This document shows, in pieces, positions 315 to 46,370 of a DNA stretch of 64,000 nt (the stretch's first letter is position 1; the number at the start of each line of letters is the position of its first letter). The position numbers and the translations under genes were made by a program. Under the pieces are notes generated by a model. It saw only the letters and a list, made by a program, of their open reading frames with translations, was not told where the DNA came from and made no database searches. The stretch comes from Xiphophorus maculatus (Eukaryota > Chordata > Actinopteri > Cyprinodontiformes > Poeciliidae): assembly GCF_002775205.1 (NCBI RefSeq), contig NC_036456.1:13419463-13483462 (forward strand), read 5' to 3'.

Positions 315-661
315 ATTTGACTTTAAAAGTGCAGCTCGATTTTTAAATGCGGCAGATGATGGGTTCAGCAAATCAGTGGTGAAGGTCTCGCCCAGAGACC
401 TAAAAGTCACTTTCCTTGTGACTGTTGCCTCCACAGTTGGAGTTGTTTTGGTTGTTGGTTTAACTGCAGTAGATGGAGTTGTGGTGTTGGTTGTTGGATT
501 AACTGCAGTAGATGGAGTTGTGGTGTTGGTTGTTGGATTAACTGCAGTAGATGGAGTTGTGGTGTTGGTTGTTGGATTAACTGCAGTAGTTGCAGTTGAG
601 TTTGGAGAGATGATGGTATCTGTAGAATTTGTAGTGGGCGGTGTGGTTGGCAAAGGTGTGC
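315..661 (-). CDS. Exon P: short Thr-rich linker plus start of SEA-6 (347 nt)
   Basis: Acceptor CTTTTTCTGGCAG has the only strong pyrimidine tract among the Thr-rich exons; donor GTAAGT; phases 1 in, 0 out. It starts R-T-P-L-P-T-T-P-P-T-T-N-S-T and carries about three copies of a 13-residue unit AVNPTTNTTTPST, each with an N-T-T sequon. It then passes to EATVTRKVTFRSLGETF and DLLNPSSAAF, ending LLKSN, the start of a further SEA domain whose remaining exons lie below position 1. This linker is about 75 residues, against 1,750-9,900 in the other modules, so the repetitive part of the gene tapers here. Confidence 0.9.
462..592 (-). repeat. 39-bp minisatellite, about three copies, in exon P
   Basis: The unit (plus strand) starts AACTGCAGTAGATGGAGTTG and includes GTGGTGTTGGTTGTTGG. 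It encodes 13 residues with an N-T-T sequon and is unrelated in period to the 21-bp unit elsewhere. Confidence 0.88.
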
Positions 662-754: not shown

Positions 755-948
755 GTATTATTTGGACAGAACCAGGTGAAAATGGGACATCCATGATAGT
801 GTTGTTATAGGACGAATCTATAGCATCTGATAACGTTTTTTGTACTTCTTCGTTCCTTGGGAGTTCCGCAAGTGGCGTGGTTTGGTTAAACTCCACCCCA
901 ACCTCAACTTCTGTGACATTCATTCGAATTCGGGATGTTACAGAAACT
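755..948 (-). CDS. Exon O: divergent SEA-5 C-terminal segment without G-S site (194 nt)
   Basis: Acceptor TATTGCAG, donor GTAAGT, phases 2 in and 1 out, 45 nt longer than its 149-nt counterparts. The translation starts RVSVTSRIRMNVTEVEVGVE and goes on FNQTTPLAELPRNEEVQKTL, then a helix and SYNNTIMD. The strand E-V-G-V-E-F takes the place of T-L-D-L-E-F, but the preceding R-G-S-V is replaced by a longer stretch without G-S, so self-cleavage is not expected. Sequons N-V-T, N-Q-T and N-N-T are present. It ends VQII and then joins exon P through a split Arg codon. Confidence 0.9.
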
Positions 949-1029: not shown

Positions 1030-1094
1030 CTAAATGAAATGACATAACTACGGACGAAGAGGGCTCCAAAAGCTTTTCTGTAGAGCATGTCATA
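1030..1094 (-). CDS. Exon N: SEA-5 middle segment (65 nt)
   Basis: Encodes YDMLYRKAFGALFVRSYVIS then F and two bases of Arg. Acceptor CTACAG, donor GTAAGC, phases 0 in and 2 out, as in the other modules, but one codon longer. L-Y-R-K-A-F-G-A-L-F aligns with L-Y-K-Q-A-F-R-S-F-L. The introns around it are very short (116 and 81 nt). Confidence 0.9.
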
Positions 1095-1210
1095 CTGTAG
1101 GACAAAAGATTAAGTACAATGATAAGAATATTGTATAACTGAATATTTTAATATTTCAATTGAATGTCTGACAATATGACCATAATGATATATTTTACTA
1201 TGGCACTTAC

Positions 1211-4200
1211 TACTGCAACAATCCTCTTTGCGAGATCCTTAAATTTTTGGGTGTTAATATCTTTGAGATCTTCATCAAATGGTTCGTAAACAACCACTCC
1301 AACATAAAAAACTGGAGCAGGAGGTCCATTTGTAGTAGTTGCATTAGTAGCCGGAATTGTTTGATAAGCTGTGGTTTGGTTTTGAGTAGATGACATTAAG
1401 GTTGGCTTAGCTGATAGTGTCGAAGGAGCTGTGGTGGGAGATGAAACTGTCGTGTTTGATGGAATTGTTGCGGTCAGGGAAGGTGTGGCTGTTAAAGGAA
1501 GAACTGTGGAAGTAATTAGAGCAGGTGTAGTTGCTGCTGGAGCAGAAGAAGTGTTGGTTGAACCACTTGTGGTTCTGATCGGGGCATTTGTGGCTATATT
1601 TGGGGCAGCTGTGAATGTGTTAGGAGACACTGTGGTCTCTGTAACAGAAGTTTGACTTGTAACTGTAGCAGCTGTTATTACTGATGAAGGTGATATTGTT
1701 GAAGGAAAAATTGAGGATGTGGATGTAGTTGATATGGATGTAGCTGGAGAGGTTTTGGTAGTGGCTGTTGCATTAATTCTAGTGGATTGGGCAATCGTAG
1801 TTGTGGGTGGAGCTGCTGTGGTTTGCAGATTTGTAGTTATGGTTGAGCGAGCTGTAATTGGGATGCTTGGAGTAGAGCTTGTTATTGTTGGCGCAACGGA
1901 TGTGGATGTGGATGTAGCAGTTATGGTGGTGATTGGGGCAGCTGTTGTTGGAGTGTCTGATGTTGTGGTTGCAGCTACTGTAGTTGTGGTTGGTGCCTCT
2001 GTTGTTGTGGTTGGAGATGCTGTTGTTGTTGGAACAGCTGTGGTTGTGGTTGGAGTAACTGTTGTTGTGGTTGGAGTAACTGTGGTTGTGGTTGGTGCCT
2101 CTGTTGTTGTGGTCGGAGCTGTTGTGGTAGGAGCAACTGTGGTTTTGCTTGGAGATGCTGTTGTTGTTGGAACAGCTGTGGTTGTGGTGGGAGCTACAGT
2201 TGTTGTGGTCGGAGCAGATGTAGTTGTGGTTGGAGCTTCAGTTGTTGTGGTTGGAGAAGGTGTTGTGGTTTCAGCAGCTGGGGTTATGGATAAAGCTGCT
2301 GTTGTTGTGTTTGGAGCAGCTGTGGTTGTGGTTGGAGCTGCTGTGGTTGTGGTTGGAGCTGCTTTGGTTGTGGTTGGTGCAGCTGTTGTGGTTGAAGGAA
2401 CTGATGTTGTGGTTGGAGCAGCTGTGGTTGTGGTTGGTGTCTCTGTTGTTGTGGTTGGTGCAGCTGTTGTGGTTGAAGGAACTGATGTTGTGGTTGGAGC
2501 AGCTGTGGTTGTGGTTGGTGTCTCTGTTGTTGTGGTTGGAGCTAGTGTAGTTGTGGTAGGAGCTGCTGTTGTTGTGGATGGTGCCTTTGTTGTTGTGGTT
2601 GGAGTAACAGTGGTTGTGGTTGGAGTTGCTGTTGTTGTCGTTGGAGCTACAGTTGTTGTGGTTGGAGCAAATGTTGTTGTGGTTGGTGTCTCTGTTGTTG
2701 TGGTTGGAGCTAGTGTAGTTGTGGTTGGTGTCTCTGTTGTTGTGGTTGGAGCCAGTGTAGTTGTGGTTGGAGCTTCCGTTATTGTGGTTGGAGCTGCTGT
2801 CGTTGTGGTTGGTGCCTCTGTTGTTGTGGTTGGAGTAACTGTGGTTGTGGTTGCAGCTACTGTAGTTGTGGTTGGAGCTGCTGTAGTTGTGGTTGGAGCA
2901 ACTGCGGTTGTGGTTGGAGCAACTGTTGTTGTGGTTGGTGTCTCTGTTGTTGTGGTTGGAGCAGTTGTAGTTGTGATTGGAGCAACAGTTGTTGTGGTTG
3001 GAGCAACTGTTGTTGTGGTTGGTGTCTCTGTTGTTGTGGTTGGAGCAGTTGTAGTTGTGGTTGGAGCAACTGTGGTTGTGGATGGAGATGCTGTTGTTGT
3101 TGGAGCAGCTGTGGTTGTGGTTGGAGTTGATGTTGTTGTCGTTGGAGCTGCAGTTGTTGTGGTTGGAGCAAATGTTGTTGTGGTTGGAGAAGCTGTGGTT
3201 GTTGTTGGAGCTACTGCTGTTGTGGTTGGAGCAACTGTTGTTGTGGTTGGAGCAACTGTAGTTGTGGTTGGTGTCTCTGTTGTTGTGGTTGGAGCTAGTG
3301 TAGTTGTGGTTGGAGCTACTGTAGTTGTGGTTGGTGCCTCTCTTGTTGTGGTCGGACCGGTTGTGCTTGTGGTTGGAGATGCTGTTGTGCTTGGAGCAGC
3401 TGTGGTTGTGGTTTGAGCAACAGTTGTTGTGGTAGGAGCAACTGTACTTGTGGTTGGTGTGGTTGGAGCTAGTGTAGTTGTGGTTGGAGAGACTGTTGTG
3501 GTTGAAAGAATTGTTGTGGTTGCAGCAGCTGTGGTTGTGGTTGGAGCTGCTGTGGTTGTCGTCGGAGCTACTGTTGTTGTGGATGGAGCAACTGTTGTGG
3601 TTGATGATGCTGTTTTTGTTGGAGCAGCTGTGGTTGTAGTTGGAGCTGCTGTTGTGGTTGGTGGCTCTGTTGTGGTTGGAGCAACTGTTGTTGTGGTCGG
3701 AGCTGCTGTTGTGATTGGAGAAACTGTTGTGGTTGCAGCCGCTGTGGTTGTGGTTGGAGTTGCTGTTGTTGAGGTTGGTGTCTGTGTTGTTGTGGTTGGA
3801 GCTACTGTAGTTGTGGTTGGAGCTTCTGTTGTTGTGGTTGGAGCTGCTGTGGTTGTTGTTGGTGAAGCTGTTGTGGTTGAAGGAATTGTTGTTGTGGTTG
3901 CAGCAGCTGTGGTTGTGGCTGGAGCACCTGTGGTTGTGGTTGTAGCTGCTCTGGATGTGGTTGGTGCAACTGTTGTTGTCGTCGGAGCTACTGTTGTTGT
4001 GGTTGGAGCAACTGTTGTTGTGGTCGGAGCTGTTGTGGTTGTGGTTGGAGAAACTGTTGTGGTTGCAGCTGCTGTGGTTGTGGTTTGAGCTGCTGTTGTT
4101 GTGGTTGGGGTCTCTTTTGTTGTAGTTGGTGTCTCTGTTGCTGTGGTCGGAGCAACTGTGGTTGTGGTTGGAGTTGCTGTTGTTGTCGTTGGAGCTACAG

Positions 4201-7200: not shown

Positions 7201-10200
7201 TGGTTGTGGTTGGTGCAGCTGTTGTGGTTGAAGGAATTGTTGTTGTGGTTGGAGCAGCTGTGGTTGTGGTCGGAGCTGCTGTGGTTGTGGTTGGAGCAAC
7301 TGTTGTGGTTGCAGCCGCTGTGGTTGTGGTTGGAGCTGCTGTTGTTGTGGTTGGAGCAACTGTAGTTGTGGTTAGAGCTTCTGTTGTTGTGGTTGGAGCT
7401 GCTGTGGTTGTGGTTGTTGCAACTGTTGTGGTTGAATGAATTGCTCTTGTGGTTGGAGCTGCTGTGGTTGTGGTTGGAGCAACTGTGGTTGTGGTCGGAG
7501 CTGCTGTGGTTGTGGTTGGAGCTTCTGTTGTTGTGGTTGGAGCTGCTGTGGTTGTGGTTGGAGAAGCTGTTGTGGTTGCAGAAGCTGTGGTTGTGGTTGG
7601 AGAAACTGTTGTTGTGGTTGGAGCAGCTGTGGTTGTGGTTGGAGCTGCTGTGGTTGTGGTTGGTGCAGCTGTTGTGGTTGAAGGAATTGTTGTTGTGGTT
7701 GCAGCAGCTGTGGTTGTGGTTGGTCCAACTGTTGTGGTTGAAGGAATTGTTGTTGTGATTGGAGCAGCTGTGGTTGTGGTCGGAGCTGCTGTGGTTGTGG
7801 TTGGAGCAACTGTTGTGGTTGCAGCCGCTGTGGTTGTGGTTGGAGCTGCTGTTGTTGTGGTTGGAGCAACTGTAGTTGTGGTTAGAGCTTCTGTTGTTGT
7901 GGTTGGAGCTGCTGTGGTTGTGGTTGTTGCAACTGTTGTGGTTGAATGAATTGCTCTTGTGGTTGGAGCTGCTGTTGTTGTGGTTGGAGCTGCTGTGGTT
8001 GTGGTTGGTGCAGCTGTTGTTGTTGAAGGAATTGTTGTTGTGGTTGGAGCAGCTGTTGTGGTTGGAGCAGCTGTGGTTGCGGTTGGAGCACCTGTGGTTG
8101 TGGTTGGAGCTGCTGTGGTTGTGGTTGGTGCAGCTGTTGTGGTTGAAGGAAATGTTGTTGTGGTTGGAGCAGCTGTTGTGGTTGGAGCAGCTGTGGTTGT
8201 GGTTGGAGCTGCTGTGGTTGTGGTTGGAGCTGCCGTTGTTGTGGTTGGTGTCTCTGTTCTTGTGGTTGGAGCTACTGTAGTTGTGGGTAGAGCTTCTGTT
8301 GTTGTGGTTGGAGCTGCTGTGGTTGTGCTTGGTGCAGCTGTTATGGTTGAAGGAATTGTTGTTGTGGTTGGAGCAGCTGTGGTTGTGGTTGGAGCTGCTG
8401 TGGTTGTGGTTGGAGCTGCTGTGGTTGTGGTTGGTGCGGCTGTTGTGGTTGAAGGAATTGTTGTTGTGGTTGGAGCAGCTGAGGTTGTGGTCGGAGCTGC
8501 TGTGGTTGTGGTTGGAGAAACTGTTGTGGTAGCAGGCGCTGTGGTTGTGGTTGGAGCTGCCATTGTTGTGGTTGGTGTCTCTGTTCTTGTGGTTGGAGCT
8601 ACTGTAGTTGTGGTTAGAGCTTCTGTTGTTGTGGTTGGAGCTGCTGTGGTTGTGCTTGGTGCAGCTGTTGTGGTTGAAGGAATTGTTGTTGTGGTTGGAG
8701 CAGCTGTGGTTGTGGTTGTAGCTGCTGTGGTTGTGGTTGGTGCAGCTGTTGTGGTTGAAGGAATTGTTGTTGTGGTTGGAGCAGCTGTTGTTGTGGTTGG
8801 AGCAGCTGTGGTTGTGGTTGGAGCTGCTGTGGTTGTGGTTGGTGCAGCTGTTGTGGTTGAAGGAATTGTTGTTGTGGTTGGAGCAGCTGTGGTTGTGGTC
8901 GGAGCTGCTGTGGTTGTGGTTGGAGCAACTGTTGTGGTTGCAGCCGCTGTGGTTGTGGTTGGAGCTGCTGTTGTTGTGGTTGGAGCAACTGTAGTTGTGG
9001 TTAGAGCTTCTGTTGTTGTGGTTGGAGCTGCTGTGGTTGTGGTTGTTGCAACTGTTGTGGTTGAATGAATTGCTCTTGTGGTTGGAGCTGCTGTGGTTGT
9101 GGTTGGAGCAACTGTGGTTGTGGTCGGAGCTGCTGTGGTTGTGGTTGGAGCTTCTGTTGTTGTGGTTGGAGCTGCTGTGGTTGTGGTTGGAGAAGCTGTT
9201 GTGGTTGCAGAAGCTGTGGTTGTGGTTGGAGAAACTGTTGTTGTGGTTGGAGCAGCTGTGGTTGTGGTTGGAGCTGCTGTGGTTGTGGTTGGTGCAGCTG
9301 TTGTGGTTGAAGGAATTGTTGTTGTGGTTGCAGCAGCTGTGGTTGTGGTTGGTCCAACTGTTGTGGTTGAAGGAATTGTTGTTGTGATTGGAGCAGCTGT
9401 GGTTGTGGTTGGAGCTGCTGTGGTTGTGGTTGGTGCAGCTGTTGTGGTTGAAGGAATTGTTGTCGTGGTTGGAGCATCTGTGGTTGTGGTTGGAGCTGCT
9501 GTGGTTGTGGTTGGTGCAGCTGTTGTGGTTGAAGGAATTGTTGTTGTGGTTGGAGCAGCTGTTGTTGTGGTTGGAGCAGCCGTGGTTGTGGTTGGAGCTG
9601 CTGTGGTTGTGGTTGGTGCAGCTGTTGTGGTTGAAGGAATTGTTGTGGTAACAGCCGCTGTGGTTGTGGTTGGAGCTGCCGTTGTTGTGGTTGGTGTCTC
9701 TGTTCTTGTGGTTGGAGCTACTGTAGTTGTGGTTAGAGCTTCTGTTGTTGTGGTTGGAGCTGCTGTGGTTGTGCTTGGTGCAGCTGTTGTGGTTGAATGA
9801 ATTGTTGTTGTGGTTGGAGCAGCTGTGGTTGTGGTTGGAGCTGCTGTTGTGGTTGAAGGAATTGTTGTTGTGGTTGGAGCAGCTGTGGCTGTGGTTGGAG
9901 CTGCTGTGGTTGTGGTTGGTGCAGCTGTTGTGGTTGAAGGAATTGTTGTTGTTGTTGGAGCAGCTGTTGTTGCGGTTGGAGCAGCTGTGGTTGTGGTTGG
10001 AGCTGCTGTGGTTGTGGTTGGTGCAGCTGTTGTGGTTGAAGGAATTGTTGTTGTGGTTGGAGCAGCTGTGGTTGTGGTCGGAGCTGCTGTGGTTGTGGTT
10101 GGAGCAACTGTTGTGGTTGCAGCCGCTGTGGTTGTGGTTGGAGCTGCTGTTGTTGTGGTTGGTGTCTCTGTTGTTGTGGTTGGAGCAACTGTAGTTGTGG

Positions 10201-13200
10201 TTAGAACTTCTGTTGTTGTGGTTGGAGCTGCTGTGGTTGTGGTTGGTGCAGCTGTTGTGGTTGAAGGAATTATTGTTGTGGTTGGAGCAAATGTTGTTGT
10301 GGTCGGAGCTACTGTGGTTGTGGTTGGAGAAGTTGTTGTGGTTGCAGCAGCTGTGGTTGTGGTTGGAGCAGCTGTTGTTGTGGTTAGAGCTTCTGTTGTT
10401 GTGGTTGGTGCAGCTGTGGTTGTGGTTGGTGCAGCTGTTGTGGTTGAAGGAATTGTTGTTGTGGTTGGAGCAGCTGTTGTTGTGGTAGCAGCCGCTGTGG
10501 TTGTGGTTGGAGCTGCCGTTGTTGTGGTTGGTGTCTCTGTTCTTGTGGTTGGAGCTATTGTAGTTGTGCTTAGAGCTTCTGTTGTTGTGGTTGGAGCTGC
10601 TGTGGTTGTGGTTGGAGCAGCTGTGGTTGTGGTTGGAGCTGCTGTGGTTGTGGTTGGTGCAGCTGTTGTGGTTGAAGGAATTGTTGTTGTGGTTGGAGCA
10701 GCTGTTGTTGTGGTTGGAGCAGCTGTGGTCGTGGTTGGAGCTGCTGTGGTTGTGGTTGGTGCAGCTGTTGTGGTTGAAGGAATTGTTGTTGTGGTTGGAG
10801 CAGCTGTTGTTGTGGTTGGAGCAGCCGTGGTTGTGGTTGGAGCTGCTGTGGTTGTGGTTGGTGCAGCTGTTGTGGTTGAAGGAATTGTTGTTGTGGTTGG
10901 AGCAGCTTTGGTTGTGGTCGGAGCTGCTGTGGTTGTGGTTGGAGCAACTGTTGTGGTTGCAGCCGCTGTGGTTGTGGTTGGAGCTGCTGTTGTTGTGGTT
11001 GGAGCAACTGTAGTTGTGGTCAGAGCTTCTGTTGTTGTGGTTGGAGCTGCTGTGGTTGTGGTTGTTGCAACTGTTGTGGTTGAATGAATTGCTCTTGTGG
11101 TTGGAGCTGCTGTGGTTGTGGTTGGAGCAACTGTGGTTGTGGTCGGAGCTGCTGTGGTTGTGGTTGGAGCTTCTGTTGTTGTGGTTGGAGCTGCTGTGGT
11201 TGTGGTTGGAGAAGCTGTTGTGGTTGCAGAAGCTGTGGTTGTGGTTGGAGAAACTGTCGTGGTAGCAGCCGCTGTGGTTGTGGTTCGAGCTGCCGTTGTT
11301 GTGGTTGGTGTCTCTGTTCTTGTGCTTGGTGCAGCTGTTGTGGTTGAAGGAATTGTTGTTGTGGTTGCAGCAGCTGTGGTTGTGGTTGGTTCAACTGTTG
11401 TGGTTGAAGGAATTGTTGTTGTGATTGGAGCATCTGTGGTTGTGGTTGGAGCTGCTGTGGTTGTGGTTGGTGCAGCTGTTGTGGTTGAAGGAATTGTTGT
11501 CGTGGTTGGAGCATCTGTGGTTGTGGTTGGAGCTGCTGTGGTTGTGGTTGGTGCAGCTGTGGTTGTGGTTGGTGCAGCTGTTGTGGTTGAAGGAATTGTT
11601 GTTGTGGTTGGAGCAGCTGTTGTTGTGGTTGGAGCAGCCGTGGTTGTGGTTGGAGCTGCTGTGGTTGTGGTTGGTGCAGCTGTTGTGGTTGAAGGAATTG
11701 TTGTGGTAGCAGCCGCTGTGGTTGTGGTTGGAGCTGCCGTTGTTGTGGTTGGTGTCTCTGTTCTTGTGGTTGGAACTACTGTAGTTGTGCTTAGAGCTTC
11801 TGTTGTTGTGGTTGGAGCTGCTGTGGTTGTGCTTGGTGCAGCTGTTGTGGTTGAAGGAATTGTTGTTGCGGTTGGAGCAGCTGTTGTTGTGGTTGGAGCT
11901 GCTGTGGTTGTGGTTGGTGCAGCTGTTGTGGTTGAAGGAATTGTTGTGGTAGCAGCCGCTGTGTTTGTGGTTGGAGCTGCCGTTGTTGTGGTTGGTGTCT
12001 CTGTTCTTGTGGTTGGAGCTACTGTAGTTGTGGTTAGAGCTTCTGTTGTTGTGGTTGGAGCTGCTGTGGTTGTGCTTGGTGCAGCTGTTGTGGTTGAAGG
12101 AATTGTTGTTGTGGTTGGAGCAGCTGTGGTTGTGGTTGGAGCTGCTGTGGTTGTGGTTGGTGCAGCTGTTGTGGTTGAAGGAATTGTTGTTGTGGTTGGA
12201 GCAGCTGTTGTGGTTGGAGCAGCTGTGGTTGTGGTTGGAGCTGCTGTGGTTGTGGTTGGTGCAGCTGTTGTGGTTGAAGGAATTGTTGTTGTGGTTGGAG
12301 CAGCTGTGGTTGTGGTCAGAGCTGCTGTGGTTGTGGTTGGAGCAACTGTTGTGGTTGCAGCCGCTGTGGTTGTGGTTGGAGCTGCTGTTGTTGTGGTTGG
12401 TGTCTCTGTTGTTGTGGTTGGAGCAACTGTAGTTGTGGTTAGAGCTTCTGTTGTTGTGGTTGGAGCTGCTGTGGTTGTGGTTGGTGCAGCTGTTGTGGTT
12501 GAAGGAATCATTGTTGTGGTTGGAGCAACTGTTGTTGTGGTCGGAGCTACTGTGGTTGTGGTTGGAGAAGCTGTTGTGGTTGCAGCAGCTGTGGTTGTGG
12601 TTGGAGCAGCTGTTGTTGTGGTTAGAGCTTCTGTTGTTGTGGTTGGTGCAGCTGTGGTTGTGGTTGGTGCAGCTGTTGTGGTTGAAGGAATTGTTGTTGT
12701 GGTTGGAGCAGCTGTTGTTGTGGTTGTAGCAGCTGTGGTTGTGGTTGTAGCTGCTGTGGTTGTGGTTGGTGCAGCTGTTGTGGTTGAAGGAATTGTTGTT
12801 GTGGTTGGAGCAGCTGTTGTTGTGGTTGGAGCAGCCGTGGTTGTGGTTGGTGCAGCTGTTGTGGTTGAAGGAATTGTTGTGGTAGCAGCCGCTGTGGTTG
12901 TGGTTGGAGCTGCCGTTGTTGTGGTTGGTGTCTCTGTTCTTGTGGTTGGAGCTACTGTAGTTGTGGTTAGAGCTTCTGTTGTTGTGGTTGGAGCTGCTGT
13001 GGTTGTGCTTGGTGCAGCTGTTGTGGTTGAAGGAATTGTTGTTGTGGTTGGAGCAGCAGTGGTTGTGGTTGGAGCTGCTGTGGTTGTGGTTGGTGCAGCT
13101 GTTGTGGTTGAAGGAATTGTTGTTGTGGTTGGAGCAGCTGTTGTTGTGGTTGGAGCAACTGTGGTTGTGGTTGGAGCTGCTGTGGTTGTGGTTGGTGCAG

Positions 13201-19200: not shown

Positions 19201-22200
19201 CAGCAGCTGTGGTTGTGGTTGGTCCAACTGTTGTGGTTGAAGGAATTGTTGTTGTGATTGGAGCAGCTGTGGTTGTGGTTGGAGCTGCTGTGGTTGTGGT
19301 TGGTGCAGCTGTTGTGGTTGAAGGAATTGTTGTCGTGGTTGGAGCATCTGTGGTTGTGGTTGGAGCTGCTGTGGTTGTGGTTGGTGCAGCTGTTGTGGTT
19401 GAAGGAATTGTTGTTGTGGTTGGAGCAGCTGTTGTTGTGGTTGGAGCAGCCGTGGTTGTGGTTGGAGCTGCTGTGGTTGTGGTTGGTGCAGCTGTTGTGG
19501 TTGAAGGAATTGTTGTGGTAACAGCCGCTGTGGTTGTGGTTGGAGCTGCCGTTGTTGTGGTTGGTGTCTCTGTTCTTGTGGTTGGAGCTACTGTAGTTGT
19601 GGTTAGAGCTTCTGTTGTTGTGGTTGGAGCTGCTGTGGTTGTGCTTGGTGCAGCTGTTGTGGTTGAATGAATTGTTGTTGTGGTTGGAGCAGCTGTGGTT
19701 GTGGTTGGAGCTGCTGTTGTGGTTGAAGGAATTGTTGTTGTGGTTGGAGCAGCTGTGGCTGTGGTTGGAGCTGCTGTGGTTGTGGTTGGTGCAGCTGTTG
19801 TGGTTGAAGGAATTGTTGTTGTTGTTGGAGCAGCTGTTGTTGCGGTTGGAGCAGCTGTGGTTGTGGTTGGAGCTGCTGTGGTTGTGGTTGGTGCAGCTGT
19901 TGTGGTTGAAGGAATTGTTGTTGTGGTTGGAGCAGCTGTGGTTGTGGTCGGAGCTGCTGTGGTTGTGGTTGGAGCAACTGTTGTGGTTGCAGCCGCTGTG
20001 GTTGTGGTTGGAGCTGCTGTTGTTGTGGTTGGTGTCTCTGTTGTTGTGGTTGGAGCAACTGTAGTTGTGGTTAGAACTTCTGTTGTTGTGGTTGGAGCTG
20101 CTGTGGTTGTGGTTGGTGCAGCTGTTGTGGTTGAAGGAATTATTGTTGTGGTTGGAGCAAATGTTGTTGTGGTCGGAGCTACTGTGGTTGTGGTTGGAGA
20201 AGTTGTTGTGGTTGCAGCAGCTGTGGTTGTGGTTGGAGCAGCTGTTGTTGTGGTTAGAGCTTCTGTTGTTGTGGTTGGTGCAGCTGTGGTTGTGGTTGGT
20301 GCAGCTGTTGTGGTTGAAGGAATTGTTGTTGTGGTTGGAGCAGCTGTTGTTGTGGTAGCAGCCGCTGTGGTTGTGGTTGGAGCTGCCGTTGTTGTGGTTG
20401 GTGTCTCTGTTCTTGTGGTTGGAGCTATTGTAGTTGTGCTTAGAGCTTCTGTTGTTGTGGTTGGAGCTGCTGTGGTTGTGGTTGGAGCAGCTGTGGTTGT
20501 GGTTGGAGCTGCTGTGGTTGTGGTTGGTGCAGCTGTTGTGGTTGAAGGAATTGTTGTTGTGGTTGGAGCAGCTGTTGTTGTGGTTGGAGCAGCTGTGGTC
20601 GTGGTTGGAGCTGCTGTGGTTGTGGTTGGTGCAGCTGTTGTGGTTGAAGGAATTGTTGTTGTGGTTGGAGCAGCTGTTGTTGTGGTTGGAGCAGCCGTGG
20701 TTGTGGTTGGAGCTGCTGTGGTTGTGGTTGGTGCAGCTGTTGTGGTTGAAGGAATTGTTGTTGTGGTTGGAGCAGCTTTGGTTGTGGTCGGAGCTGCTGT
20801 GGTTGTGGTTGGAGCAACTGTTGTGGTTGCAGCCGCTGTGGTTGTGGTTGGAGCTGCTGTTGTTGTGGTTGGAGCAACTGTAGTTGTGGTCAGAGCTTCT
20901 GTTGTTGTGGTTGGAGCTGCTGTGGTTGTGGTTGTTGCAACTGTTGTGGTTGAATGATTTGCTCTTGTGGTTGGAGCTGCTGTGGTTGTGGTTGGAGCAA
21001 CTGTGGTTGTGGTCGGAGCTGCTGTGGTTGTGGTTGGAGCTTCTGTTGTTGTGGTTGGAGCTGCTGTGGTTGTGGTTGGAGAAGCTGTTGTGGTTGCAGA
21101 AGCTGTGGTTGTGGTTGGAGAAACTGTCGTGGTAGCAGCCGCTGTGGTTGTGGTTCGAGCTGCCGTTGTTGTGGTTGGTGTCTCTGTTCTTGTGCTTGGT
21201 GCAGCTGTTGTGGTTGAAGGAATTGTTGTTGTGGTTGCAGCAGCTGTGGTTGTGGTTGGTTCAACTGTTGTGGTTGAAGGAATTGTTGTTGTGATTGGAG
21301 CATCTGTGGTTGTGGTTGGAGCTGCTGTGGTTGTGGTTGGTGCAGCTGTTGTGGTTGAAGGAATTGTTGTCGTGGTTGGAGCATCTGTGGTTGTGGTTGG
21401 AGCTGCTGTGGTTGTGGTTGGTGCAGCTGTGGTTGTGGTTGGTGCAGCTGTTGTGGTTGAAGGAATTGTTGTTGTGGTTGGAGCAGCTGTTGTTGTGGTT
21501 GGAGCAGCCGTGGTTGTGGTTGGAGCTGCTGTGGTTGTGGTTGGTGCAGCTGTTGTGGTTGAAGGAATTGTTGTGGTAGCAGCCGCTGTGGTTGTGGTTG
21601 GAGCTGCCGTTGTTGTGGTTGGTGTCTCTGTTCTTGTGGTTGGAACTACTGTAGTTGTGCTTAGAGCTTCTGTTGTTGTGGTTGGAGCTGCTGTGGTTGT
21701 GCTTGGTGCAGCTGTTGTGGTTGAAGGAATTGTTGTTGCGGTTGGAGCAGCTGTTGTTGTGGTTGGAGCTGCTGTGGTTGTGGTTGGTGCAGCTGTTGTG
21801 GTTGAAGGAATTGTTGTGGTAGCAGCCGCTGTGTTTGTGGTTGGAGCTGCCGTTGTTGTGGTTGGTGTCTCTGTTCTTGTGGTTGGAGCTACTGTAGTTG
21901 TGGTTAGAGCTTCTGTTGTTGTGGTTGGAGCTGCTGTGGTTGTGCTTGGTGCAGCTGTTGTGGTTGAAGGAATTGTTGTTGTGGTTGGAGCAGCTGTGGT
22001 TGTGGTTGGAGCTGCTGTGGTTGTGGTTGGTGCAGCTGTTGTGGTTGAAGGAATTGTTGTTGTGGTTGGAGCAGCTGTTGTGGTTGGAGCAGCTGTGGTT
22101 GTGGTTGGAGCTGCTGTGGTTGTGGTTGGTGCAGCTGTTGTGGTTGAAGGAATTGTTGTTGTGGTTGGAGCAGCTGTGGTTGTGGTCAGAGCTGCTGTGG

Positions 22201-25200
22201 TTGTGGTTGGAGCAACTGTTGTGGTTGCAGCCGCTGTGGTTGTGGTTGGAGCTGCTGTTGTTGTGGTTGGTGTCTCTGTTGTTGTGGTTGGAGCAACTGT
22301 AGTTGTGGTTAGAGCTTCTGTTGTTGTGGTTGGAGCTGCTGTGGTTGTGGTTGGTGCAGCTGTTGTGGTTGAAGGAATCATTGTTGTGGTTGGAGCAACT
22401 GTTGTTGTGGTCGGAGCTACTGTGGTTGTGGTTGGAGAAGCTGTTGTGGTTGCAGCAGCTGTGGTTGTGGTTGGAGCAGCTGTTGTTGTGGTTAGAGCTT
22501 CTGTTGTTGTGGTTGGTGCAGCTGTGGTTGTGGTTGGTGCAGCTGTTGTGGTTGAAGGAATTGTTGTTGTGGTTGGAGCAGCTGTTGTTGTGGTTGTAGC
22601 AGCTGTGGTTGTGGTTGTAGCTGCTGTGGTTGTGGTTGGTGCAGCTGTTGTGGTTGAAGGAATTGTTGTTGTGGTTGGAGCAGCTGTTGTTGTGGTTGGA
22701 GCAGCCGTGGTTGTGGTTGGTGCAGCTGTTGTGGTTGAAGGAATTGTTGTGGTAGCAGCCGCTGTGGTTGTGGTTGGAGCTGCCGTTGTTGTGGTTGGTG
22801 TCTCTGTTCTTGTGGTTGGAGCTACTGTAGTTGTGGTTAGAGCTTCTGTTGTTGTGGTTGGAGCTGCTGTGGTTGTGCTTGGTGCAGCTGTTGTGGTTGA
22901 AGGAATTGTTGTTGTGGTTGGAGCAGCAGTGGTTGTGGTTGGAGCTGCTGTGGTTGTGGTTGGTGCAGCTGTTGTGGTTGAAGGAATTGTTGTTGTGGTT
23001 GGAGCAGCTGTTGTTGTGGTTGGAGCAACTGTGGTTGTGGTTGGAGCTGCTGTGGTTGTGGTTGGTGCAGCTGTTGTGGTTGAAGGAATTGTTGTTGTGG
23101 TTGGAACAGCTGTGGTTGTGGTTGGAGCAACTGTTGTGGTTGCAGCCGCTGTGGTTGTGGTTGGAGCTGCTGTTGTTGTGGTTGGTGTCTCTGTTGTTGT
23201 GGTTGGAGCAACTGTAGTTGTGGTTTGAGCTTCTGTTGTTGTGGTTGGAGCTGCTGTGGTTGTGGTTGGTGCAGCTGTTGTGGTTGAAGGAATTATTGTT
23301 GTGGTTGGAGCAACTGTTGTTGTGGTCGGAGCTACTGTGGTTGTGGTTGGAGAAGCTGTTGTGGTTGCAGCAGCTGTGGTTGTGGTTGGAACAGCTGTTG
23401 TTGTGGTTAGAGCTTCTGTTGTTGTGGTCGGAGCTACAGTGGTTGTGGTTGGAGCAACTGTAGTTGTGGTTAGAGCTTCTGTTGTTGTGGTTGGAGCTGC
23501 TGTGGTTGTGGTTGGTGCAACTGTTGTGGTTGAATGAATTGTTCTTGTGGTTGGAGCTGCTGTGGTTGTGGTTGGTGCAGCTGTTGTGGTTGAAAGAATT
23601 GTTGTTGGGGTTGCAGCAGCTGTGGTTGTGGTTGGTGCTGCTGTGGTTGTGGTTTTTGCAGCTGTTGTGGTTGAAGGAATTGTTGTTGTGATTGGAGCAG
23701 CTGTGGTTGTGGTTGGTGCAGCTGTTGTGGTTGAAGGAATTGTTGTTGTGGTTGCAGCAGCTGTGGTTGTGGTTGGTTCAACTGTTGTGGTTGAAGGAAT
23801 TGTTGTTGTGGTTGGAGCAGCTGTGGTCGTGGTTGGAGTTGCTGTGTTTGTGGTTGTTGCAGCTGTTGTGGTTGAAGGAATTGTTGTCGTCGGAGCTATT
23901 GTTGTTGTGGTTGGAGCTTCTGTTGTTGTGGTTGAAGCTGCTGTGGTTGGTGCAGCTGTTGTTGTTGAAAGAATTGTTGTTGTGGTTGGAGCAGATGTGG
24001 TTGTGGTTGGAGCAGCTGTGATTGTGGTTGGAGCTCCTGTGGTTGTGGTTGGTACAGCTGTTGTGGTTGAAGGAATTGTTGTTGTGGTTGGAGAAGCTGT
24101 AGTTGTGGTTGGAGATGCTGTGATAGTGGTTGGTGCAGCTGTTGTGGTTGAAGGAATTGATGTTGTGGATGAAGCAGCTGTTGTGGTTGGAGCTGTTGTG
24201 GTTGGAGAAGCTGTTGTAGTTGCAGCAGCTGTGGTTGTGGTTGGAGCAACTGTTGTTGTTGTTGGAGCAACTGTTGTTGTGGTCGGAGCTGCTGTGGTTG
24301 TGGTTGGAGAAACTGTTGTGGTTGAAGCCGTTGTGGTTGTGGTTGTAGCTGCTGTTGTTGTGGTTAGAGCTTCTATTGTTGTGGTTGGAGCTGCTGTGGT
24401 TGTGGTCAGTGCAGCTGTTGTTGAGGTTGGTGTCTCTGTTGTTTTGGTTGGAGCAGCTGTGGTTGTGGTTGGAGCTGCTGTGGTTGTGGTTTGTGCAGCT
24501 GTTGTGGTTGAAGGAATTGTTGTTGTGGTTGGAGCATCTGTGGTTGTGGTTGGAGCTGCTGTGGTTGTGGTTGGAGAAGCTGTTGTGGTTGCAGAAGCTG
24601 TGGTTGTGGTTGGAGAAACTGTTGTGGTAGCAGCCTCTGTGGTTGTGGTTGGAGCTGCCGTTGTTGTGGTTGGTGTCTCTGTTCTTGTGGTTGGAGCTAC
24701 TGTAGTTGTGGTTAGAGCTTCTGTTGTTGTGGTTGCATCTGCTGTGGTTGTGCTTGGTGCAGGTGTTGTGGTTGAAGGAATTGTTGTTGTGGTTGGAGCA
24801 GCTGTGGTTGTGGTTCGAGCTGCTGTGGTTGTGGTTGGTGCAGCTGTTGTGGTTGAAGGAATTGTTGTTGTGGTTGGAGCATCAGTGGTTGTGGTTGGAG
24901 CCGCTGTGGTTGTGGTTGGAGAAGCTGTTGTGGTTTCAGAAGCTGTGGTTGTGGTTGGAGAAACTGTTGTGGTAGCAGCCACTGTGGTTGTGGTTGGAGC
25001 TGCTGTGGTTGTGGTTGGTGCAGCTGTTGTGGTTGAAGGAATTGTTGTTGTGGTTGGAGCAGCTGTTGTTGTGGTTGGAGCAGCTGTGGTTGTGGTTGGA
25101 GCTGCTGTGGTTGTGGTTGGTGCAGCTGTTGTGGTTGAAGGAATTGTTGTTGTGGTAGGAGCGTCAGTGGTTGTGGTTGGAGCTGCTGTGGTTGTGGTTG

Positions 25201-28200
25201 GAGAAGCTGTTGTGGTAGCAGCCGCTGTGGTTGTGGTTGGAGCTGCTGTTGTTGTGGTTGGTGTCTCTGTTCTTGTGGTTGGAGCAACTGTAGTTGTGGT
25301 TAGAGCTTCTGTTGTTGTGCTTGGAGCTGCTGTGGTTGTGCTTGGTGTAGCTGTTGTGGTTGAAGGAATTGTTGTTGTGGTTGGAGCAGCTGTGGTTGTG
25401 GTTGGAGCTTCTGTGGTTGTGGTTGGTGCAGCTGTTGTGGTTGAAGGAATTGTTGTTGTGGTTGGAGCAGCTGTGGTCGTGGTTGGAGTTGCTGTGTTTG
25501 TGGTTGTTGCAGCTGTTGTGGTTGAAGGAATTGTTGTCGTCGGAGCTATTGTTGTTGTGGTTGGAGCTTCTGTTGTTGTGGTTGAAGCTGCTGTGGTTGG
25601 TGCAGCTGTTGTTGTTGAAAGAATTGTTGTTGTGGTTGGAGCAGCTGTGGTTGTGGTTGGAGCAGCTGTGATTGTGGTTGGAGCTCCTGTGGTTGTGGTT
25701 GGTACAGCTGTTGTGGTTGAAGGAATTGTTGTTGTGGTTGGAGAAGCTGTAGTTGTGGTTGGAGATGCTGTGATAGTGGTTGGTGCAGCTGTTGTGGTTG
25801 AAGGAATTGATGTTGTGGATGAAGCAGCTGTTGTGGTTGGAGCTGTTGTGGTTGGAGAAGCTGTTGTAGTTGCAGCAGCTGTGGTTGTGGTTGGAGCAAC
25901 TGTTGTTGTTGTTGGAGCAACTGTTGTTGTGGTCGGAGCTGCTGTGGTTGTGGTTGGAGAAACTGTTGTGGTTGAAGCCGTTGTGGTTGTGGTTGTAGCT
26001 GCTGTTGTTGTGGTTAGAGCTTCTATTGTTGTGGTTGGAGCTGCTGTGGTTGTGGTCAGTGCAGCTGTTGTTGAGGTTGGTGTCTCTGTTGTTTTGGTTG
26101 GAGCAGCTGTGGTTGTGGTTGGAGCTGCTGTGGTTGTGGTTGGTGCAGCTGTTGTGGTTGAAGGAATTGTTGTTGTGGTTGGAGCATCTGTGGTTGTGGT
26201 TGGAGCTGCTGTGGTTGTGGTTGGAGAAGCTGTTGTGGTTGCAGAAGCTGTGGTTGTGGTTGGAGAAACTGTTGTGGTAGCAGCCTCTGTGGTTGTGGTT
26301 GGAGCTGCCGTTGTTGTGGTTGGTGTCTCTGTTCTTGTGGTTGGAGCTACTGTAGTTGTGGTTAGAGCTTCTGTTGTTGTGGTTGCATCTGCTGTGGTTG
26401 TGCTTGGTGCAGGTGTTGTGGTTGAAGGAATTGTTGTTGTGGTTGGAGCAGCTGTGGTTGTGGTTCGAGCTGCTGTGGTTGTGGTTGGTGCAGCTGTTGT
26501 GGTTGAAGGAATTGTTGTTGTGGTTGGAGCATCAGTGGTTGTGGTTGGAGCCGCTGTGGTTGTGGTTGGAGAAGCTGTTGTGGTTTCAGAAGCTGTGGTT
26601 GTGGTTGGAGAAACTGTTGTGGTAGCAGCCACTGTGGTTGTGGTTGGAGCTGCTGTGGTTGTGGTTGGTGCAGCTGTTGTGGTTGAAGGAATTGTTGTTG
26701 TGGTTGGAGCAGCTGTTGTTGTGGTTGGAGCAGCTGTGGTTGTGGTTGGAGCTGCTGTGGTTGTGGTTGGTGCAGCTGTTGTGGTTGAAGGAATTGTTGT
26801 TGTGGTTGGAGCGTCAGTGGTTGTGGTTGGAGCTGCTGTGGTTGTGGTTGGAGAAGCTGTTGTGGTTTCAGAAGCTGTGGTTGTGGTTGGAGAAACTGTT
26901 GTGGTAGCAGCCGCTGTGGTTGTGGTTGGAGCTGCTGTTGTTGTGGTTGGTGTCTCTGTTCTTGTGGTTGGAGCAACTGTAGTTGTGGTTAGAGCTTCTG
27001 TTGTTGTGCTTGGAGCTGCTGTGGTTGTGCTTGGTGTAGCTGTTGTGGTTGAAGGAATTGTTGTTGTGGTTGGAGCAGCTGTGGTTGTGGTTGGAGCTTC
27101 TGTGGTTGTGGTTGGTGCAGCTGTTGTGGTTGAAGGAATTGTTGTTGTGGTTGGAGCAGCTGTTGTTGTGGTTGGAGCAGCTGTGGTTGTGGTTGGAGCT
27201 GCTGTGGTTGTGGTTGGTGCAGCTGTTGTGGTTGAAGGAATTGTTGTTGTGGTTGGAGCAGCTGAGGTTGTGGTCGGAGCTGCTGTGGTTGTGGTTGGAG
27301 CTGCTGTGGTTGTGGTTGGTGCAGCTGTTGTGGTTGAAGGAATTATTGTTGTGGTTGGAGCATCAGTGGTTGTGGTTGGAGCCGCTGTGGTTGTGGTTGG
27401 AGAAGCTGTTGTGGTTTCAGAAGCTGTGGTTGTGGTTGGAGAAACTGTTGTGGTAGCAGCCACTGTGGTTGTGGTTGGAGCTGCTGTGGTTGTGCTTGGT
27501 GCAGGTGTTGTGGTTGAAGGAATTGTTGTTGTGGTTGGAGCAGCTGTGGTTGTGGTTCGAGCTGCTGTGGTTGTGGTTGGAGCTGCTGTGGTTGTGGTTG
27601 GTGCAGCTGTTGTGGTTGAAGGAATTGTTGTTGTGGTTGGAGCGTCAGTGGTTGTGGTTGGAGCTGCTGTGGTTGTGGTTGGAGAAGCTGTTGTGGTAGC
27701 AGCCGCTGTGGTTGTGGTTGGAGCTGCTGTTGTTGTGGTTGGTGTCTCTGTTCTTGTGGTTGGAGCAACTGTAGTTGTGGTTAGAGCTTCTGTTGTTGTG
27801 CTTGGAGCTGCTGTGGTTGTGCTTGGTGTAGCTGTTGTGGTTGAAGGAATTGTTGTTGTGGTTGGAGCAGCTGTGGTTGTGGTTGGAGCTTCTGTGGTTG
27901 TGGTTGGTGCAGCTGTTGTGGTTGAAGGAATTGTTGTTGTGGTTGGAGCAGCTGTGGTCGTGGTTGGAGTTGCTGTGTTTGTGGTTGTTGCAGCTGTTGT
28001 GGTTGAAGGAATTGTTGTCGTCGGAGCTATTGTTGTTGTGGTTGGAGCTTCTGTTGTTGTGGTTGAAGCTGCTGTGGTTGGTGCAGCTGTTGTTGTTGAA
28101 AGAATTGTTGTTGTGGTTGGAGCAGCTGTGGTTGTGGTTGGAGCAGCTGTGATTGTGGTTGGAGCTCCTGTGGTTGTGGTTGGTACAGCTGTTGTGGTTG

Positions 28201-31017
28201 AAGGAATTGTTGTTGTGGTTGGAGAAGCTGTAGTTGTGGTTGGAGATGCTGTGATAGTGGTTGGTGCAGCTGTTGTGGTTGAAGGAATTGATGTTGTGGA
28301 TGAAGCAGCTGTTGTGGTTGGAGCTGTTGTGGTTGGAGAAGCTGTTGTAGTTGCAGCAGCTGTGGTTGTGGTTGGAGCAACTGTTGTTGTTGTTGGAGCA
28401 ACTGTTGTTGTGGTCGGAGCTGCTGTGGTTGTGGTTGGAGAAACTGTTGTGGTTGAAGCCGTTGTGGTTGTGGTTGTAGCTGCTGTTGTTGTGGTTAGAG
28501 CTTCTATTGTTGTGGTTGGAGCTGCTGTGGTTGTGGTCAGTGCAGCTGTTGTTGAGGTTGGTGTCTCTGTTGTTTTGGTTGGAGCAGCTGTGGTTGTGGT
28601 TGGAGCTGCTGTGGTTGTGGTTGGTGCAGCTGTTGTGGTTGAAGGAATTGTTGTTGTGGTTGGAGCATCTGTGGTTGTGGTTGGAGCTGCTGTGGTTGTG
28701 GTTGGAGAAGCTGTTGTGGTTGCAGAAGCTGTGGTTGTGGTTGGAGAAACTGTTGTGGTAGCAGCCTCTGTGGTTGTGGTTGGAGCTGCCGTTGTTGTGG
28801 TTGGTGTCTCTGTTCTTGTGGTTGGAGCTACTGTAGTTGTGGTTAGAGCTTCTGTTGTTGTGGTTGCATCTGCTGTGGTTGTGCTTGGTGCAGGTGTTGT
28901 GGTTGAAGGAATTGTTGTTGTGGTTGGAGCAGCTGTGGTTGTGGTTCGAGCTGCTGTGGTTATGGTTGGTGCAGCTGTTGTGGTTGAAGGAATTGTTGTT
29001 GTGGTTGGAGCATCAGTGGTTGTGGTTGGAGCCGCTGTGGTTGTGGTTGGAGAAGCTGTTGTGGTTTCAGAAGCTGTGGTTGTGGTTCGAGAAACTGTTG
29101 TGGTAGCAGCCACTGTGGTTGTGGTTGGAGCTGCTGTGGTTGTGGTTGGTGCAGCTGTTGTGGTTGAAGGAATTGTTGTTGTGGTTGGAGCAGCTGTTGT
29201 TGTGGTTGGAGCAGCTGTGGTTGTGGTTGGAGCTGCTGTGGTTGTGGTTGGTGCAGCTGTTGTGGTTGAAGGAATTGTTGTTGTGGTTGGAGCGTCAGTG
29301 GTTGTGGTTGGAGCTGCTGTGGTTGTGGTTGGAGAAGCTGTTGTGGTTTCAGAAGCTGTGGTTGTGGTTGGAGAAACTGTTGTGGTAGCAGCCGCTGTGG
29401 TTGTGGTTGGAGCTGCTGTTGTTGTGGTTGGTGTCTCTGTTCTTGTGGTTGGAGCAACTGTAGTTGTGGTTAGAGCTTCTGTTGTTGTGCTTGGAGCTGC
29501 TGTGGTTGTGCTTGGTGTAGCTGTTGTGGTTGAAGGAATTGTTGTTGTGGTTGGAGCAGCTGTGGTTGTGGTTGGAGCTTCTGTGGTTGTGGTTGGTGCA
29601 GCTGTTGTGGTTGAAGGAATTGTTGTTGTGGTTGGAGCAGCTGTTGTTGTGGTTGGAGCAGCTGTGGTTGTGGTTGGAGCTGCTGTGGTTGTGGTTGGTG
29701 CAGCTGTTGTGGTTGAAGGAATTGTTGTTGTGGTTGGAGCAGCTGAGGTTGTGGTCGGAGCTGCTGTGGTTGTGGTTGGAGCTGCTGTGGTTGTGGTTGG
29801 TGCAGCTGTTGTGGTTGAAGGAATTATTGTTGTGGTTGGAGCATCAGTGGTTGTGGTTGGAGCCGCTGTGGTTGTGGTTGGAGAAGCTGTTGTGGTTTCA
29901 GAAGCTGTGGTTGTGGTTGGAGAAACTGTTGTGGTAGCAGCCGCTGTGGTTGTGGTTGGAGCTGCTGTTGTTGTGGTTGGTGTCTCTGTTCTTGTGGTTG
30001 GAGCAACTGTAGTTGTGGTTAGAGCTTCTGTTGTTGTGCTTGGAGCTGCTGTGGTTGTGCTTGGTGTAGCTGTTGTGGTTGAAGGAATTGTTGTTGTGGT
30101 TGGAGCAGCTGTGGTTGTGGTTGGAGCTTCTGTGGTTGTGGTTGGTGCAGCTGTTGTGGTTGAAGGAATTGTTGTTGTGGTTGGAGCAGCTGTTGTTGTG
30201 GTTGGAGCTGCTGTGGTTGTGGTTTGTGCAGCTGTTGTGGTTGAAGGAATTATTGTTGTGGTTGGAGCAACTGTTGTTGTGGTCGGAGCTACTGTGGTTG
30301 TGGTTGGAGAAGCTGTTGTGGTTGCAGCAGCTGTGGTTGTGGTTGGAGCAGCTGTTGTTGTCGTCGGAGCTACAGTGGTTGTGGTTGGAGCAAGTGTTGT
30401 TGTGGTTGGAGCTGCTGTTGTTGTGGTTGGTGTCTCTGTTGTTGTGGTTGGAGCAACTGTAGTTGTGGTTAGAGCTTCTGTTGTTGTGGTTGGAGCTGCT
30501 GTGGTTGTGGTTGGTGCAGCTGTTGTGGTTGAAGGAATTATTGTTGTGGTTGGAGCAACTGTTGTTGTGGTTGTTGTCTCTGTTGTTGTGGTTGGAGCTA
30601 CTGTAGTTGTGGTTAGAGCTTCTGTTGTTGTGGTTGGAGCTGCTGTGGTTGTGGTTGGTGCAGCTGTTGTGGTTGAAGGAATTATTGTTGTGGTTGGAGC
30701 AACTGTTGTTGTGGTCGGAACTACTGTGGTTGTGGTTGGAGAAGCTGTTGTGGTTGCAGCAGCTGTGGTTGTGGTTGGAGCAACTGTGGTTGTGGTTGGA
30801 GCTGTTGTGGTTGATGCAGCTGTTGATGTTGAATGAATTGTTGTTGTGGCTGAAGCTGCTGTGGTTGTGGTTGGAGCTGCTGTTGTTGTGGTTGGTGTCT
30901 CTGTTGTGGTTGGAGCAACTGGTGTTGTGGTTGGAGTAGCTGTGGTTGTGGTCGGTGCCTCTGTTGTGGTCGGAGAAGTTGTGGTTGTTGTTGGTGCAGC
31001 TGTTGTTGTTAAAGGAA
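1211..31017 (-). CDS. Exon M: 29.8-kb Thr-rich mucin exon plus start of SEA-5
   Basis: 29,807 nt, two bases plus 9,935 codons. The segment 29113 down to the donor is one uninterrupted frame; the segment 31015 to 29113 is in the same frame and showed no stop where I read it. It starts V-P-L-T-T-T-A-A-P after acceptor CAACCACAG and ends in phase 0 at GTAAGT after A-K-R-I-V-A-V. About 9,600 residues are APTTTTA heptads punctuated by IPSTTT units, with longer higher-order repeats. The last ~230 residues before the SEA start are degenerate Ser/Thr/Pro sequence with several N-glycosylation sequons (NTTVS, NATTT, NQTT). The final ~37 residues (PVFYVGVVVYEPFDEDL...) begin a divergent SEA domain. No Cys occurs. 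An assembly artefact inside the repeats cannot be excluded. Confidence 0.92.
6595..9408 (-). repeat. 1,629-bp tandem duplication in exon M
   Basis: About 6595-7779 is repeated at 8224-9408 with spacing 1,629. The landmark TTGAATGAATTGCTCTTG recurs at matching places. The second copy overlaps the start of the 9.7-kb block, so the 1,629-bp event and the 9,870-bp event are nested. Confidence 0.83.
8790..28404 (-). repeat. Two near-identical ~9.7-kb blocks inside exon M (spacing 9,870 bp)
   Basis: 8790-18534 matches 18660-28404 at constant spacing 9,870 bp with no length change that I could find. Differences I verified include 15160/25030 (c/t), 16780/26650 (a/c), 17146/27016 (a/c) and 11088/20958 (a/t). 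The 125 bp between the blocks resembles the sequence at 8994-9120. 9,870 is a multiple of 3 and of 21. Confidence 0.9.
13912..18534 (-). repeat. Nested 1,650-bp and 2,481-bp repeats in exon M
   Basis: 13912-15345 matches 15562-16995 (spacing 1,650), and about 15.28-16.05 kb matches 17.76-18.53 kb (spacing 2,481). The same nest appears again 9,870 bp on (from 23782), which shows that these formed before the 9.7-kb duplication. Confidence 0.83.
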
Positions 31018-31133
31018 CTGTGGTTGTAGTTTGATATGAGCATTAGTAAAGCAGTACTGCATCACTCAAAATGTCAATCGTTTTGGTAATGTACAGAATT
31101 ACATTTTTTATGGATGTTTTTTACTTTGCTTAC

Positions 31134-31282
31134 CTAAGTCTCCAACAATAACCGATGACGCTTCCACCGAGAATTCAGTTATGTTTGGTGCCTCATTAAT
31201 TAAAACATTTTCGATTGCTTGATTACTAGGAACATCTGTTGCTTGAAATTCGAGGTCCAGCGTGTTGATAACTGATCCTCTT
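31134..31282 (-). CDS. Exon L: SEA-4 C-terminal segment with G-S site (149 nt)
   Basis: Acceptor ATTTGCAG, donor GTAAGC, phases 2 in and 1 out. The translation starts RRGSVINTLDLEF, then QATDVPSNQAIENVLINEAP, the sequon N-I-T and EFSVEASSVIVGDL. It keeps the SEA G-S site. It joins exon M as a split Val codon (V-P-L-T-T-T), exactly as exon I joins exon J. Confidence 0.94.
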
Positions 31283-31366: not shown

Positions 31367-31428
31367 CTGAATGAGATAATAATCATTCCCAAGAATGACC
31401 TAAATGCTTGTTTGTAGAGGGGATGAAG
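31367..31428 (-). CDS. Exon K: SEA-4 middle segment (62 nt)
   Basis: Encodes LHPLYKQAFRSFLGMIIISF plus two bases of Arg, the same as exon H. Acceptor TTTGCAG, donor GTACTG, phases 0 in and 2 out. Confidence 0.94.
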
Positions 31429-46075: not shown

Positions 46076-46224
46076 CTAAGTCTCCAACAATAACCGATGA
46101 CGCTTCCACCGAGAATTCAGTTATGTTTCCTGCCTCATTGATTAAAACATTTTCGATTGCTTGATAACTAGGAACCTCTGTTGCTTGAAATTCGAGGTCC
46201 AGCGTGTTGATAACTGATCCTCTT
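46076..46224 (-). CDS. Exon I: SEA-3 C-terminal segment with G-S site (149 nt)
   Basis: Acceptor TTTGCAG, donor GTAAGC, phases 2 in and 1 out. The translation starts RRGSVINTLDLEF, then QATEVPSYQAIENVLINEAG, the sequon N-I-T, and EFSVEASSVIVGDL. It differs from exon L at only a few residues (EVPSYQ against DVPSNQ, EAG against EAP). G-S at the SEA cleavage position is retained. It joins exon J through a split Val codon. Confidence 0.94.
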
Positions 46225-46308: not shown

Positions 46309-46370
46309 CTGAATGAGATAATAATCATTCCCAAGAATGACCTAAATGCTTGTTTGTAGAGGGGATGAAG
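46309..46370 (-). CDS. Exon H: SEA-3 middle segment (62 nt)
   Basis: Encodes LHPLYKQAFRSFLGMIIISF plus two bases of Arg. Acceptor TTTGCAG, donor GTACTG, phases 0 in and 2 out. The protein sequence is identical to exon K of SEA-4. Confidence 0.94.

Follow-up and report, generated by a model that had tools for sequence, protein, structure and literature searches.

Exon P4 and the gene model

The window, a stretch of 64,000 nucleotides (nt) of the Xiphophorus maculatus genome (contig NC_036456.1, positions 13,419,463 to 13,483,462), was best explained by a gene for a giant cell-surface mucin of the SEA type on the minus strand. This reading is held with considerable confidence and includes the 29,807 nt between positions 31017 and 1211 as one exon. 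The exon, designated P4, is supported as a single open coding exon of the type rich in proline, threonine and serine (PTS). Read from its third base, P4 contained no stop over 9,935 codons, while its two remaining sense frames carried 153 and 42. A coding stretch of this length in one frame, as described in an initial annotation of the window, was thus borne out. Simulated P4-like sequences showed on average 89 stops per frame under a first-order and 65 under a second-order Markov model, with minima of 60 and 46, respectively (100 runs each). The open frame closes at 31042 upstream and at 1151 downstream, so P4 cannot extend much beyond either end.

The bounding donor GTAAGT at 1210 and the acceptor at 31018, which the initial annotation had named, were both present. 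The donor reads GTA/GTAAGT, with the slash marking the exon end, and the acceptor reads CAACTACAACCACAG directly before the exon. The acceptor motif CAACCACAG occurred in 465 copies within P4, so the motif alone proves little and its context carries the case. The proposed acceptor was the first AG downstream of a branch-point-like site, TTTACTAATGC, in a 116-nt intron. The same intron end was found before exon P3 and recurred in a neighbouring paralogue, gene B. Splicing at both ends of P4 would preserve the single frame, and the downstream join falls within a Pfam SEA match.

The model of the gene in the window, gene A, was built from the window and its flanks in the same genome, with window coordinates extended beyond 64,000 and below 1. 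It was derived from genomic sequence, and splice sites were picked by hand according to frame, motif and SEA continuity. Within the window, 16 exons comprised 59,934 nt and 19,978 codons without a stop. The full model begins with an ATG at 82,242, ends with a stop at -1,054 and has 26 exons in a gene of 83,297 nt. Its coding sequence of 77,142 nt encodes 25,713 amino acids with no internal stop; threonine and serine account for 57.1% of the whole product and cysteine is absent. The first exon has 43 nt including the ATG (82,242-82,200) and the last spans -966 to -1,054. Eight PTS exons of 3,893, 6,059, 7,187, 8,561, 5,366, 14,054, 29,807 and 347 nt alternate with eight SEA domains, each with two small exons, one of 62 or 65 nt and the other of 149 or 194 nt. 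Intron phases recur, being 0 from PTS exon to SEA exon 2, 2 from SEA exon 2 to SEA exon 3 and 1 from SEA exon 3 to the next PTS exon, so that a whole module could be added or skipped in frame. Skipping P4 alone would cause a frameshift.

SEA domains and protein ends

A mucin is recognised by a PTS domain together with a SEA or VWD domain, according to PMC1552070. P4 encodes 58.6% serine plus threonine and 12.2% proline with no cysteine, which is the composition of a mucin PTS domain. The SEA domain was provided by PF01390, which scored above the curated Pfam cut-off in all seven gene A units tested (unit b was left out) and in one gene B unit. Four other aligned SEA units showed 25-97% identity to unit 3, and those with just 25% and 44% identity kept its exon phases. 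Searched against the PDB at a cut-off of E 1, a profile built from five of the window's SEA units gave eight weak matches, with E values of up to 0.2. The best were 1ivz (E 0.00046), which we take to be the SEA domain of mouse Muc16, the transmembrane protease 2e7v (E 0.0034) and Mucin-1 6bsb (E 0.024). At the aligned position that is presumably the site of self-cleavage in MUC1, G-S was present in seven of the eight SEA units; unit 4 was without it.

The N-terminus of the model, MGPEKVLPLLLILTTQ, was inspected by eye as a putative signal sequence. The C-terminus reads DDIQVSSGVSHNISLITALSLVLLSWLLSNQQ and the stop codon follows three residues past a hydrophobic stretch (LITALSLVLLSWLLSNQQ before the stop). 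Its layout is SSG, a short spacer, a run of about 15 residues that are mostly hydrophobic, and NQQ. Signals for a glycosylphosphatidylinositol (GPI) anchor consist of small residues, a spacer and a hydrophobic end, with no cytoplasmic tail. Judged by eye, the C-terminus resembles such a signal, and the tail VSSGVSHNISLITALSLVLLSWLLSNQQ followed by a stop ends all three paralogues at the locus. The transmembrane segment with a cytoplasmic tail that marks SEA-type transmembrane mucins was not seen in the model.

Paralogues and the length of P4

At least three tandem paralogues lie on the same strand, and the unique 3' sequence of genes A, B and C was 97.9-98.5% identical. Gene B, upstream of gene A, was complete (138,957 to 91,371) with 32 exons, 13,500 amino acids and no internal stop. 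The acceptors of its exons PB2-PB4 are uncertain, and the more upstream choice adds a short stretch with one cysteine. Gene C, farther upstream, was represented by its 3' part, from above 184,000 to about 154,100. The exon homologous to P4 comprised 9,908 nt in gene B and 12,329 nt in gene C, both free of stops. About 2 kb past genes B and C, a second SEA and GPI-like end was observed (89,840-89,300 and 152,560-152,050, respectively), and no PTS exon was apparent ahead of it. These ends are perhaps alternative 3' ends or remnants.

P4 carries a tandem duplication of 9,870 bp whose two copies make up about two thirds of the exon. The copies differed by four substitutions in 9,746 aligned bases, all four changing an amino acid, and by no insertion or deletion. 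Shorter and more diverged internal duplications were found at lags of 2,481 (2,478 bp, 99.6% identity) and 1,650 (1,467 bp, 99.3% identity). When the four leading repeat lags were taken from each of five PTS exons of genes A, B and C, all 20 were multiples of 3, some being sums of others. An alignment of 2,465 bases showed 34 substitutions between genes A and B. Measured against this value, the four differences between the copies place the large duplication long after that of the genes, unless it is an assembly error. It may be recent, polymorphic or an artefact, and the length of P4 is therefore provisional.

The main competing explanation is that P4 is real with a length of about 19.9 kb and that the second copy arose when the assembly joined two haplotypes or array alleles end to end. 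We regard this as unlikely, though with a substantial share of the probability. The near-identity of the copies favours it, and the divergence of genes A and B far exceeds that between them. The remaining leading internal duplications in the five PTS exons differ by at least 0.4%, and the 9.8-kb duplication exceeds the next in length about fourfold. Without the second copy, P4 would have 19,937 nt, nearer to the lengths of the paralogous exons. Against an erroneous join, frame and register are exactly preserved, 9,870 being a multiple of 3, and the sequence at the copy junction is unlike the continuation of either block flank. Elsewhere in 224 kb of sequence from the locus, the junction-spanning stretch had no exact match longer than 146 bp. 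This partial check, made on one haplotype, thus turned up no long exact overlap by which a false join would be imposed, and makes such a join less likely. Large jumps in length are also common in human mucin arrays (PMC13345508).

Internal donor sites and the open frame

The sense strand of P4 consists of 38.5% A, 41.1% C, 9.4% G and 11.0% T, and its GT density was 7.9 per kb compared with 51.7 in the introns. The initial annotation overstated this scarcity in reporting almost no GT outside A-GTT and A-GTA contexts, as 185 of 235 were in these contexts and 50 in others. Donors were scored with a matrix built from consensus frequencies, for which the threshold is rough. On this scale, none of the 235 internal GTs reached the score of the weakest among 16 modelled donors. 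Three near-threshold CAGGTGCTC sites fell just under it, compared with a mean of 3.4 (range 1-7) under synonymous-codon permutation. Exons P1 (8.6 kb) and P3 (14.1 kb), equally open, held 11 and 12 near-threshold donors with permuted means of 6.7 (range 3-11) and 7.9 (range 4-12), respectively. P1 contained one strong-looking donor, at 54370. GTRAG was absent from all six PTS exons in the window, with 2.2 and 1.6 copies expected under two codon permutations.

The GT count of P4 compares with about 250 (standard deviation 3-4) after synonymous permutation and 245 (standard deviation 3) after shuffling of codon order. This deficit of 4-6% below the codon-preserving expectation amounts to about 3 to 5 standard deviations. 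Selection against GT was rejected as the main cause of the openness of P4, the deficit being small and the near-threshold donors of P4 matching expectation; weak GT avoidance may exist. The scarcity of donors is mostly a by-product of threonine, alanine and proline codons. The A/C-rich codons ACA, ACC, GCT, CCA and GCA are poor in T and G, and P4 therefore offers little opportunity for stops and GTs. Strong internal donors are indeed absent, as the initial annotation had proposed to explain the unbroken exon, but codon content largely accounts for their absence and P1 and P3 are equally open.

Internal splicing of P4 in RNA, by which the genomic frame would not be one mature exon, appears improbable. 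The abundant acceptor-like CAACCACAG motifs and the three CAGGTGCTC sites barely under the weakest modelled donor would allow for it. The lack of GTRAG and of any internal GT as strong as the weakest modelled donor argues against it, and P4 has no stop or frame change that needs removal. That P4 is a noncoding, low-complexity A/C-rich satellite, open by composition, is less probable still: other frames can also run long, a second frame of 4,701 codons overlapping P3, but P4's other sense frames are rich in stops, the Markov simulations gave at least 46, and splice sites link the SEA domains in one frame across the entire gene and again in a paralogue.

Feature coordinates and neighbouring sequences

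Features of the mucin locus within the window are listed in Table 1. The introns of the gene are short and CpG is depleted in them (0.26). In unit 1, the intron that precedes SEA exon 2 (53912-52654) comprises 1,259 nt, compared with 476-477 nt for its counterparts in units 2 and 3, and appears to carry an insert of about 800 nt, perhaps a transposon remnant. A 39-bp tandem repeat with 3.9 copies was found at 448-598 inside P5. Downstream of the gene, a separate PTS frame of 1,339 codons was present at -4,925 to -8,941 with a GPI-like tail, GSSGEIHKMSFISLFCMVALSLLLLSQYEY. The region from -16,000 to -31,800 contained FN3 and SRCR domains, one open reading frame each and above the Pfam cut-off, together with SEA-like pieces; a third open reading frame there gave no Pfam match. 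This region is perhaps a receptor gene. A search for relatives on viral contigs returned 45 pattern matches, none of which was confirmed.

Table 1. Coordinates of modelled exons, introns and duplication copies in the window.
Feature	Position	Strand	Basis
PTS exon Pc (also called P0), 3' part; start at 70491 outside the window	63305..64000	-	gene model
SEA exon 2, unit c	62850..62911	-	model and Pfam
SEA exon 3, unit c	62612..62760	-	model and Pfam
PTS exon P1, 8,561 nt; acceptor position may shift by small multiples of 3	53913..62473	-	gene model
SEA exon 2, unit 1	52592..52653	-	model and Pfam
SEA exon 3, unit 1	52359..52507	-	model and Pfam
PTS exon P2, 5,366 nt	46847..52212	-	gene model
SEA exon 2, unit 2	46309..46370	-	model and Pfam
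SEA exon 3, unit 2	46076..46224	-	model and Pfam
PTS exon P3, 14,054 nt	31906..45959	-	gene model
SEA exon 2, unit 3, 62 nt	31367..31428	-	model and Pfam
SEA exon 3, unit 3, 149 nt	31134..31282	-	model and Pfam
Intron upstream of P4, 116 nt; branch-point-like TTTACTAATGC, acceptor CAACCACAG	31018..31133	-	motif, frame
PTS exon P4, 29,807 nt; 3' end encodes the beginning of SEA unit 4	1211..31017	-	open frame and splice sites
Duplication copy 1, 9,746 bp aligned	18660..28405	-	copy alignment
Duplication copy 2	8790..18535	-	copy alignment
Intron downstream of P4, 116 nt; donor GTAAGT	1095..1210	-	motif, frame
SEA exon 2, unit 4, 65 nt	1030..1094	-	model and Pfam
SEA exon 3, unit 4, 194 nt	755..948	-	model and Pfam
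Short PTS exon P5, 347 nt; SEA unit 5 begins in it; gene end at -1054 outside the window	315..661	-	gene model

Discussion

As modelled, the gene is a series of modules, each a PTS exon followed by two small SEA exons with fixed phases, which allows modules to multiply in frame. Within the PTS exons, a threonine-rich repeat (AAPTTTT and relatives) would have expanded through in-frame unequal exchange. P4 would have grown most, with the 9,870-bp tandem duplication as its latest step, and would have been kept open by the A/C-rich codon set together with duplications in multiples of three. The product is predicted to enter the secretory pathway, to carry dense O-glycosylation on threonine and serine (57% of residues) and to project as a long brush from the membrane, where a GPI anchor would hold it. 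Seven of its eight SEA domains perhaps cut themselves at G-S, with the halves remaining associated. The resulting picture, proposed tentatively and with slightly less than even confidence, is a vertebrate brush mucin, about 25,700 amino acids long, free of cysteine and held by a GPI anchor. Its giant glycosylated arms would be linked by SEA domains that serve as breakable joints, and would lengthen through in-frame duplication of the exon interior and of whole PTS-SEA modules, so that the last long arm would reach 2.4 to 3 times the length of its counterpart in two neighbouring paralogues with about 98% identical unique 3' sequence.

Several points weigh against the main reading, a giant cell-surface mucin. 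The SEA matches were modest, with 28-36 bits, and one SEA domain alone gave no PDB match at E 1. A single-sequence structure model of one SEA domain was poor (mean predicted local distance difference test score of 57) and without a clear SEA fold. A genome-wide SEA search covering 704.3 Mb on 101 contigs pointed to three places elsewhere and did not list the cluster described here; it works exon by exon, and the SEA domain here is split over three exons. The three places were on contigs C21, C11 and C19 of the same genome. The length of P4 hinges on a duplication that is possibly an artefact of assembly. Between recent copies, synonymous to nonsynonymous differences varied from 3:11 to 10:4 over seven segments that overlap in part, with about 1:2 as the neutral value; this comparison was uninformative and revealed no purifying selection at the amino-acid level. 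Instead of the GPI anchor, the product may have a short transmembrane tail or be secreted. The gene model, SEA domains, composition, duplications and paralogues are read from the sequence itself, and splicing, glycosylation, SEA cleavage, anchoring and function are deduced from it.

The length of the exon alone is no record, and the interest lies in the gene and its array of tandem paralogues. The same exon at 9.9, 12.3 and 29.8 kb among paralogues near-identical in unique 3' sequence forms a natural series. It can serve questions on the origin of array length, the splicing of giant exons and the role of SEA joints between PTS arms. Array lengths at tandem mucin loci call for proof at the level of reads before they are quoted.

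Gel-forming mucins carry VWD and other cysteine-rich domains. These traits were not found here, as the gene A product has no cysteine and Pfam gave SEA alone above the cut-off in the SEA-bearing pieces tested. The accessible parts of the open-licence literature held no report of such a gene, which is weak evidence of novelty. They do hold a larger human exon, and the claim of the initial annotation that the longest human exons are shorter than P4 was wrong. Exon 2 of human MUC3B, a PTS exon, comprises 39,267 bp (PMC9578598), and a MUC12 allele encoding 23,080 amino acids and a MUC4 allele of 27,843 bp were described in a preprint (PMC13345508), so a mucin exon of 30 kb is no record.

Gene A resembles human MUC3A, MUC3B, MUC12 and MUC17 in having a very large, repeat-built and length-variable PTS exon followed by SEA (PMC9578598, PMC13345508). 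It differs from them in that its eight PTS exons are interleaved with eight SEA domains and no cytoplasmic tail was seen in the model. Very large size and several SEA domains, eight in the model, are shared with MUC16 (CA125), and the best PDB match of the SEA profile was 1ivz. MUC16 has an N-terminal region of 12,068 amino acids followed by up to 60 repeats of 156 amino acids, each comprising SEA and two conserved cysteines (PMC4046138). In gene A, by contrast, the SEA domains are set apart by giant PTS exons and the cysteine pair is missing, with no cysteine in 25,713 amino acids. According to PMC1552070, all mucins described before it have the PTS domain in a single large exon, from which chicken Muc13 differs. 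Gene A is like chicken Muc13 in that its PTS region is spread over several exons. Chicken Muc13 holds one repeat unit per exon, whereas the long exons of gene A each hold a whole array, with SEA exons between them. Gene A belongs to the SEA-containing mucins, as a less usual member with eight PTS exons and eight SEA domains in alternation, a cysteine-free product and a GPI-like end.
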